Below are positions 55,365 through 59,284 of a stretch of 59,434 bases of DNA, in pieces. Both the position numbers and the translations under genes were made by a program. The stretch spans positions 1-59,434 of the forward strand of contig CAIYUY010000190.1 in assembly GCA_903929485.1 (NCBI GenBank), given 5' to 3'. Numbering within the stretch: position 1 is the stretch's first letter; each line of letters opens with the position of its first letter. The notes beneath the pieces were generated by a model that saw only the letters and a program-made list of their open reading frames with translations, searched no databases and was not told the DNA's origin. The DNA is from an uncultured Desulfuromonadales bacterium (GTDB lineage Bacteria; Desulfobacterota; Desulfuromonadia; Geobacterales; CAIOGM01).

Positions 55365-57905
55365 CTAACTCTCCTCCTGCATGAGGATGGCGTGGCAGGA
55401 AGTTCGCAATTGCGCCGCCACCTCTCCCAGTCGCTCCGCCGGGGCCGAGGATCCGTTCTGCTGCAACCAGAGCGCCAGTTCCGCCGGTTCCCTGTTGGTC
55501 AACTCCCCGCAGAGCCCCTTCAGCGTGTGAGCACAACGGCAGAGCCCCTCCCGATCATTTCGCTCAACCGCCCCCCCCAAGGAGTGCAGTTCATCGTGTA
55601 TATCCCGGGTCAACATCTCCCGGTACGTCCTGATACGTTCAGGGTTGCTCCCTATCCCCTCGCGACTCCGCTGAGTCAGCAACGGTTCCGTTCCCGATGA
55701 CGTCCCGCCGGAAACGACCAGCTGCAGGGCAATGGCCCGAGCCAACTGATCGGGAATAAGCGGTTTTGCCAGCACCCCATTGATCCCCGCCTGGAGACAG
55801 GAATCACGAGTGGCGCTGTCCGCATCCGCGGTGATGGCAATGATCGGCACAGGCGCGTCACCCCGTTCCTGTTCGCCAAGCCTGACACGCCGGGCAACTT
55901 CCATGCCATCCATGCCGGGCATCCGGATATCCAGCAGAACCAGGTCAAAACTCTGCTGTTCCATGAGCCTCAACCCCTGCGGGCCATCTTCCGCCAGGGT
56001 GACCTGCTGTCCCCATCCTTTCAGGAGATCCTCCAACAGAAGCCGATTGTACCGATTATCCTCCACCACCAGAACCTTCCCCACCGCAAAGGAGAGAGGC
56101 TGCACAAGCTCCGCCACAAGCGACGGTTCACTCCGCTCAAGAGGCAACAGGACGCTGAAACAACTCCCAACCCCTTCCCGACTCTCAACGGCGATACTCC
56201 CCCCCATCTTCAGCACCAGGCTCCGCACAATCGCCAGCCCCAAGCCGCTCCCGCCGTATTTGCGTGAGATGCTCGGATCAAGCTGCTGGAATGGCTTAAA
56301 AAGGTCGGATTGCTTGGTTACGGGAATACCGATACCGGAGTCATGCAGCTCAAAACGAACCGGCAAGATACTCCCCTGGGGACTCCCGTCAACCGAAGTC
56401 ACGCGGCAGGTAATCCCGCCGTTGTCGGTAAACTTGACGGCATTGGACAAAAGATTGGCCAGGATCTGCCGCAACCGGACCGGATCACCCAATACCCAGG
56501 AAGGAACCGTGTCGTCCATGACGAGCCGAAACTCCAGCTTTTTCTGAGCCGCCACATGACGATAGTGAACTTCCAGGGTAGTAACGAGTTGCCGCAGGTC
56601 GAAGGGCAAAGCTTCGAACTCCAGCCGTCCGGCCTCAATCTTGCTCATATCCAGGATATTGTTGACCAAATCCATGAGTGAGCATGACGATTGTTCCAGG
56701 ATGGCGTGATACTGGTCGAGTTTCAGCGGATCTGTCGCCCTGCGCGCCAAGGCGCTGAAACCTACCAGGGAGTTAAGCGGAGTCCGGATTTCATGACTTA
56801 TCAGGGCAAGAAAGTCGGACTTCGCCTTGCTGGCTTCCTCGGCGGCAACCTTTCGTTCTTCCAACACGACGTTTAGGGAACGGAGCCCTTCCTCGGCAAG
56901 AGCCTGTCCCGTGATATCGCGCAGCACGAGAAGGTATCCCTGAAGGGTGTCAAAACGGCGCAGTTCCGACCGGGAAAGGTGCCACCACGTACCGTGCCCG
57001 ACATCATGAAGCACGCTGTTGTGCGCCGCGGTCGCCAGACCGGACCAGCTGTTCCCCGACGGGAAGAGTTCGCTTAACGTCTGCCCCAGGGAAGCGGCAG
57101 TCAGCCCAAAAAGGCGGCCCGCAACTTTATTGGTGGAGGCCAGACTGCTCTGGGGAGTCAGCACCAGGGCGGGCTCGTTCATCTCTTCAAAAAAAGTCTT
57201 CCTGGCCATGGGGACCAGATCCAGCAGGTGATGGCGGAAGACTCCCAACCAGTAGCAGAGACCGGAAAGGAGAAAAGCCGAACTGGTCATCTGAAATCCC
57301 TTGAGAGGGGATACCTGCGTAACCTCCACAAGCATGGGGATGAGAATTCCCAGGAGGACCAGCAGAATACCGGTACGGCGCGCCCGGTTCACCCGGAACA
57401 GGTAGACGAAGCAGGCCAGAGCCGCCACAGCCACTTCCACTGTGCAGTAGAAAAGGTTCACCCAGTACCAGGGGCCATGGGAGAGTTCCAGCAACAGAAT
57501 ACCCTCACGAGAAACCAGATGAAAATTGTACTGTACCAGGCCGTGCCACCGGGTACTCCAGGTAAGGATGGCGGTAAGGCAGGGGATCGTTGATAACAGC
57601 AGGATATTCCGGCGGGTAACCAGCCGCTCTTGCCCCAAAACCGCCAGAACCAGCAAGGGGACGCACGCAGTGTAAATACTGATAAAAAGTCTGATGCCGT
57701 AATTAAATACTATTTTAAGTTCGAGACCGATAGCTGCCGTCTTCAGAACATAAAAACAGGAATGACCGAAGAAACCGACCAGCACCAGGAAGAGCCACCT
57801 GGCGGCGGGAACATGGCGATGTTTCCAGGTGTAAATGGCCAGAACACCGTTTACCAGCGCCGCAAGCAGGGGGAGGATGAGATAAGCGGTATAATAAAAA
57901 GGCAT
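55365..57905 (-). CDS. Hybrid sensor histidine kinase with 7TM sensor, receiver and HPt
   Basis: 846 residues. Seven membrane helices (about 8-230, the 7TM histidine-kinase type), a PAS domain (about 240-345), HisKA with SHEIRTPLNSLVGF, HATPase (NLLSNAVKFTDNGG, DSGIGI, GSGLGLAI), receiver (LVLLDIRMPGMDGMEV, phospho-Asp) and a C-terminal HPt (CAHTLKGLCG). It can thus run a phosphorelay on one chain, unlike the five other kinases here. The ATG at 57905 follows the stop of the prfH remnant by one base (TAATATG); a GTG 12 bases earlier is possible. Confidence 0.93.
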   Translation of the reverse strand: MPFYYTAYLILPLLAALVNGVLAIYTWKHRHVPAARWLFLVLVGFFGHSCFYVLKTAAIGLELKIVFNYGIRLFISIYTACVPLLVLAVLGQERLVTRRNILLLSTIPCLTAILTWSTRWHGLVQYNFHLVSREGILLLELSHGPWYWVNLFYCTVEVAVAALACFVYLFRVNRARRTGILLVLLGILIPMLVEVTQVSPLKGFQMTSSAFLLSGLCYWLGVFRHHLLDLVPMARKTFFEEMNEPALVLTPQSSLASTNKVAGRLFGLTAASLGQTLSELFPSGNSWSGLATAAHNSVLHDVGHGTWWHLSRSELRRFDTLQGYLLVLRDITGQALAEEGLRSLNVVLEERKVAAEEASKAKSDFLALISHEIRTPLNSLVGFSALARRATDPLKLDQYHAILEQSSCSLMDLVNNILDMSKIEAGRLEFEALPFDLRQLVTTLEVHYRHVAAQKKLEFRLVMDDTVPSWVLGDPVRLRQILANLLSNAVKFTDNGGITCRVTSVDGSPQGSILPVRFELHDSGIGIPVTKQSDLFKPFQQLDPSISRKYGGSGLGLAIVRSLVLKMGGSIAVESREGVGSCFSVLLPLERSEPSLVAELVQPLSFAVGKVLVVEDNRYNRLLLEDLLKGWGQQVTLAEDGPQGLRLMEQQSFDLVLLDIRMPGMDGMEVARRVRLGEQERGDAPVPIIAITADADSATRDSCLQAGINGVLAKPLIPDQLARAIALQLVVSGGTSSGTEPLLTQRSREGIGSNPERIRTYREMLTRDIHDELHSLGGAVERNDREGLCRCAHTLKGLCGELTNREPAELALWLQQNGSSAPAERLGEVAAQLRTSCHAILMQEES

Positions 57906-57906
57906 A

Positions 57907-58077
57907 TTACTGTTCACTACAGCGCCGGGGATTGCATGTCAACCGGAAAACCACAAAATGACGGATGCGACAGAGAGGCCCCGCCTGTAGGTTTTTCTCC
58001 GCGTTCCTCTGTCGCGCTACCACCCGGCAGCACTCCACTGGTCCACGACCGGAGGTTATCTGGAGAAGAACCGTCAT
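57907..58077 (-). pseudogene. prfH: prfH remnant: only the first 20-odd codons of peptide chain release factor H
   Basis: The 56-codon frame begins with ATG overlapping the rtcB2 stop (ATGA). Its first 21 residues, MTVLLQITSGRGPVECCRVV onwards, match the N-terminus of PrfH as I recall it (LLQLSS.QGPEECCLAV). After that the similarity ends and an unrelated frame runs to a TAA at 57907. Intact PrfH is about 200 residues and has a GGQ motif; none is present here, on any frame, before the next gene. The break coincides with a palindromic element at 57967-58015. Confidence 0.75.
57967..58015. repeat. Palindromic element at the break point of prfH
   Basis: GCGACAGAG (57967-57975) and CTCTGTCGC (58007-58015) are perfect inverted arms around 31 bases. 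On the minus strand the right part reads ACAGAGGAACGCGGAGAAAA, similar in wording to a widespread intergenic repeat (recalled, not searched). Confidence 0.65.
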
Positions 58078-59255: not shown

Positions 59256-59284
59256 TTGACAGTCGAAACGGTATTACTTATAAT
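59256..59284 (+). promoter_or_regulatory. Full-consensus sigma-70 promoter of the AbrB-type gene
   Basis: TTGACA (59256-59261) and TATAAT (59279-59284) match the consensus perfectly at the ideal 17-base spacing. Transcription would begin near 59291, about 35 bases before the ATG. Confidence 0.93.

Follow-up and report, generated by a model that had tools for sequence, protein, structure and literature searches.

In ribosome repair, PrfH frees the peptide from ribosomes cut at the decoding centre, the ribosome splits, and RtcB2 then seals the 16S rRNA (PMC9223846). The locus described herein holds a complete rtcB2 gene followed by only the beginning of prfH, which raises the question of whether the ligase acts alone, belongs to a decaying system, or is served by a PrfH encoded elsewhere; an initial annotation had left these three options side by side. 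The window, i.e., the whole stretch of DNA that was analysed (59,434 nucleotides), is the entire contig C190 of a 5.36-Mb draft genome in 369 contigs.

The prfH remnant and its surroundings

The frame that follows rtcB2 (MTVLLQITSGRGPVECCRVVARQ...) comprises 56 codons at 58077-57907 of the minus strand. The rtcB2 stop overlaps its start as ATGA, in agreement with the initial annotation. Residues 3-23 match positions 1-21 of 200 in TIGR03072 (peptide chain release factor H) with 24.3 bits and an E value of 1.9e-5. This likeness is far beyond chance, although the score does not amount to a full-length match, for which the family cut-off is 166.65 bits. In a nucleotide alignment with four intact prfH genes (on C191 of the same assembly, on C117 and C295 of genome G002, and in genome G037), the homology extends to approximately 58011 and then ends; with C191 and the two G002 loci it is unbroken from the ATG onward. 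Together, the profile match and the nucleotide alignment establish common descent with prfH, and the 20-odd remaining codons of the initial annotation can be refined to 22 of the 56. The GGQ peptidyl-hydrolase motif is absent from the 56-residue remnant, and no RF-1 domain was found in the window; of the RtcB2-PrfH operon, rtcB2 alone is intact here.

The ligase itself is complete, as the initial annotation stated, with full-length matches above the curated cut-offs of both NCBIfam models of the family: NF007153 (509.6 bits against a cut-off of 407, residues 4-371) and TIGR03073 (447.4 bits against 271.8). The motifs VGADVGCG, GSGNHF, VHSGSRGLG, DLTHN and AHGAGRK are present, four of which were aligned with the structures 2epg and 1uc2. 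In this alignment D69, C72, H132, H163, H235 and H291 are all kept, which we take to be the metal and guanylylation residues of RtcB catalysis; the metal-binding and guanylylated-histidine motifs of RtcB are accordingly all found. Judging from its sequence, the window RtcB2 probably still ligates cleaved 16S rRNA. No relative of it was found in the viral contigs searched. On the upstream side, no more than 239 bases separate the rtcB2 start from the contig end at 59434, and a perfect sigma-70-type promoter match (TTGACA-17-TATAAT, 59256-59284) precedes the divergent antitoxin gene that is cut by this end.

Features of the window around the truncated prfH gene
Feature	Position	Strand	Basis or detail
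Hybrid histidine kinase (HisKA_7TM, HisKA, HATPase_c, response regulator, Hpt)	55365..57917	-	Domain search
Non-prfH continuation of the frame, codons 23-56, TAA at 57909-57907	57907..58011	-	No convincing match in its own genome, none in same-genus genomes
Perfect 9-bp inverted repeat straddling the break	57967..58015	.	GCGACAGAG 58015-58007 / CTCTGTCGC 57975-57967
prfH remnant, PrfH codons 1-22	58012..58077	-	TIGR03072 match and nucleotide alignment
rtcB2, intact RNA ligase gene, 373 aa	58074..59195	-	Profile matches and alignment with RtcB structures
MazE/AbrB-like antitoxin gene start, divergent, cut by the contig end	59326..59434	+	PF04014, E 2.5e-7

The break is straddled by an inverted repeat, but an equal or longer one occurs in 9 of 500 shuffles; the signal is weak and its role as the cause of the break undecided. 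A dispersed repeat or mobile element was considered as the source of the sequence past the break and rejected, there being no convincing second copy in the genome. The junction itself is absent from three other genomes of the genus. The kinase beyond it has 846 residues and starts at the ATG at 57905 or at an alternative, overlapping GTG at 57917. Among 58 genomes no full-length relative was found, the matches being to its C-terminal half only, nor did the same three genus genomes contain the start of the gene.

It had also been proposed that the remnant, whose TAA does lie a single base ahead of the kinase ATG, might still be translated and couple rtcB2 to the kinase gene. Such a role, as a leader peptide or as a device that makes kinase expression depend on the ligase, might be suggested by that spacing, by the 34 codons past the break that stay open, and by the inverted repeat inside the frame. 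Nevertheless, the tail holds no obvious ribosome-binding site for the kinase start, the RNA structure of the remnant is no greater than that of shuffled sequences (z -0.42), and the tail is almost free of stops in a second reading frame too. Nor is there any conservation in the genus: codons 23-56 gave no match in the same-genus genomes and no convincing one in their own genome (best E 0.1). The coupling idea is therefore unsupported and scarcely credible, and the chimeric peptide of 56 residues probably serves no function.

A second, complete pair in the same assembly

A search of the genome with the PrfH model recovered two further prfH sequences, a full-length gene on C191 and a piece on C357. 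The former matches positions 1-200 with 251 bits, above the family cut-off, and overlaps another complete rtcB2 (513 bits) at the 3' end of the latter. Hence the option that PrfH is encoded elsewhere is supported, and the option that the system is decaying is correct for the window copy and incorrect for the genome as a whole.

The placement of C191 (5.7 kb) in this genome was examined by comparing selected contig ends. Its last 141 bases are identical to the right end of the window, after which the two differ by approximately 10% through rtcB2, and its first 140 bases recur exactly at the beginning of C131 and of C2. Such shared ends of fixed length are probably de Bruijn branch points from the assembly of a metagenome, and since they fit this origin, C191 appears to be joined at either end to other members of this bin. 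The tetranucleotide profile of C191 correlates with that of the window at r 0.855, compared with 0.90-0.96 for the window's own pieces; island genes would likewise lower this fit, so that composition is not decisive. Contamination of the genome is reported as 0.7%. In principle, C191 could come from a close relative that was binned alongside. C191 also carries a TOTE conflict-system primase-helicase and a HipA C-terminal piece (L036, 201-3209), which gives the intact rtcB2-prfH a defence-island setting.

The two rtcB2 copies are 89.5% identical in nucleotide sequence, with a dS of 0.32-0.36. Their dN/dS of 0.13-0.15 reflects purifying selection over the whole time since the copies split, and not over the time after the truncation alone. 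With G002 as outgroup, 27 silent and 10 replacing changes fall on the window branch and 32 and 7 on the C191 branch; these counts give no sign of relaxed selection on the window rtcB2, as 10 versus 7 replacements is not a meaningful difference. Against the G002 copies, both show a dS of 0.46-0.75, and the dS of prfB between the two species is 0.83. Because the dS between the two copies is lower than either value, a duplication after the species split is consistent with the data, and the pattern would fit a duplication or gene conversion at that stage.

The prfH piece on C357 covers only the GGQ domain (positions 106-200) and lies behind an extra ftsZ. It was considered as the 3' half of the window prfH and rejected, because it sits behind ftsZ and the same ftsZ-prfH fusion, with a frameshift, is found on C490 of G002. 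In G002, an accessory ftsZ stands directly ahead of rtcB2-prfH on C117 (L038, 1-2820), and on C357 the same accessory ftsZ is fused to the GGQ-domain piece with an apparent deletion of approximately 1.5 kb (L037, 1-1471). Most simply, the C357 piece derives from an ftsZ-rtcB2-prfH arrangement such as that on C117. Next to it are candidate RNA-repair genes for a Thg1-type tRNA-His guanylyltransferase and an AAA/polynucleotide-kinase-like protein (L037, 1769-3038).

Five FtsZ-family genes of the genome exceed the model cut-off, on C72, C357, C311, C216 and C203 (L129, L037, L126, L127 and L128, respectively). The C203 gene is short, with a stop within the matched stretch, and two further fragments lie on C349 and C287. 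Two same-genus genomes have one ftsZ each and G002 has two. The copies on C357, C311 and G002 C117, whose proteins are 90-97% identical, form an accessory lineage distinct from the C72 gene, which follows an ftsA-like gene and is presumably the housekeeping copy. As for other release factors, RF2 is encoded on C108, a partial match on C161 is probably RF1, and two further short hydrolases of the release-factor type, both ArfB-like, are encoded on C325 and C359.

Occurrence of the pair and explanations for the locus

RtcB2 of the window type occurs in 7 of 277 genomes of the class, among which the window copy is the only one beside a truncated prfH. The reverse case is found in G037, with a broken rtcB2 and an open, intact prfH. 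Plasmid records with RtcB2 (E up to 1e-40) number 32, and PrfH is adjacent in every one of them. In Escherichia coli, at least 80% of rtcB2 is present in 2,650 of 5,426 complete genomes. Most of the sampled E. coli without a near-full rtcB2 share a scar that joins the first 207 bases of rtcB2 to prfH from base 92, the arrangement annotated in K-12 as the pseudogenes ykfJ and prfH (NC_000913). Pseudogenes of prfH were described in 2006 by Baranov and colleagues (PMC1586002). That the operon decays is thus familiar, but among the genomes and plasmids searched, cases that leave RtcB2 whole appear to be uncommon.

The explanation that we favour with good confidence is that the window holds a partly decayed duplicate of the RtcB2-PrfH repair operon, whose ligase probably works with PrfH supplied in trans from C191. 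A rearrangement would have deleted prfH from codon 23 onward, leaving the stump fused to unrelated sequence ahead of the kinase gene. The window RtcB2 is whole and probably still seals cleaved 16S rRNA, and the complete pair on C191 would supply PrfH for both ligase copies. The sequences establish the truncation, the whole ligase gene, the other complete pair in the assembly and the purifying selection on the ligase since the copies separated; expression, activity and action of PrfH in trans are what we infer. As both are diffusible proteins, service of both ligases by the C191 PrfH is the most economical assumption. The prfH ruin on C357 and the operon ruins in E. coli indicate that such decay is usual. 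Given the other, complete pair in the same assembly, an ordinary decayed duplicate is most likely, and not a new one-gene repair system.

Three other explanations have to be weighed. The whole copy may be dying, with a redundant rtcB2 caught before its first inactivating mutation; this is a genuine though lesser possibility, consistent with the existence of the second pair, with the broken rtcB2 beside an intact prfH in G037, with the breakage of both genes in roughly half of the E. coli genomes and, for what the difference is worth, with the 10 against 7 replacements. It is opposed by the open rtcB2 frame, the full set of catalytic residues and the low dN/dS. Alternatively, the window RtcB2 might be a stand-alone repair ligase without need for PrfH, other rescue factors splitting the damaged ribosomes. 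The purifying selection on rtcB2, the two ArfB-like hydrolases and the finding that over-expressed rtcB2 alone restored colicin E3 resistance in E. coli (PMC9223846) point in this direction. However, the complete PrfH in the assembly makes such independence unnecessary, every one of the plasmid genes has PrfH beside it, and the selection estimate is not assignable to the time after the truncation, all of which makes a stand-alone ligase improbable. The option that the ligase works alone is accordingly not required, though with over-expressed rtcB2 protective by itself in E. coli, the window copy need not be useless even without C191. A division of labour, in which the window RtcB2 is kept as an independent ligase beside the RtcB2 of the complete pair, perhaps acting on ribosomes or RNAs for which PrfH is dispensable, is likewise improbable. 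An artefact of assembly or binning, with a misjoined junction or with C191 belonging to another strain and the organism lacking PrfH, is brought to mind by the draft state of the assembly, the contig end close to the rtcB2 start, and the short, branch-linked C191. It too seems unlikely, as the junction (58011) is internal to a contig of 59 kb and its sequence is unique in the genome, a de Bruijn misjoin would need a long shared word, and the reported contamination is low.

With the decayed duplicate as the preferred explanation, the locus shows in nature how the ligase of a ribosome-repair pair can persist after its release factor is lost, next to an intact copy of the pair. It would suit a test of RtcB2 action without PrfH in cis, a point left open by earlier work (PMC9223846). 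Otherwise, it is an example of the ready decay of a mobile, defence-like operon.

Comparison with known RtcB2-PrfH loci

The closest characterized counterpart is the RtcB2-PrfH operon of E. coli ATCC 25922 (PMC9223846), in which rtcB2 likewise comes first and the prfH start overlaps its stop. Both loci belong to the same two NCBIfam families, and the window genome holds an intact example elsewhere; unlike the E. coli operon, the window locus has lost prfH beyond codon 22, so that only the ligase is complete. Within the genus, G002 (uncultured Geobacteraceae MAG VK3_bin-0517) carries rtcB2-prfH twice, on C117 and C295, with rtcB2 copies 83-85% identical to that of the window. In contrast to the window, prfH is intact at both places, and the C295 rtcB2 is cut by a contig end. 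The ykfJ-prfH locus of E. coli K-12 is, like the window, a natural decay of the same operon, there through a deletion spanning the 3' portion of rtcB2 and the 5' portion of prfH, after which neither protein is whole. The window differs in having a complete ligase and in keeping the N-terminal end of PrfH as its stump.
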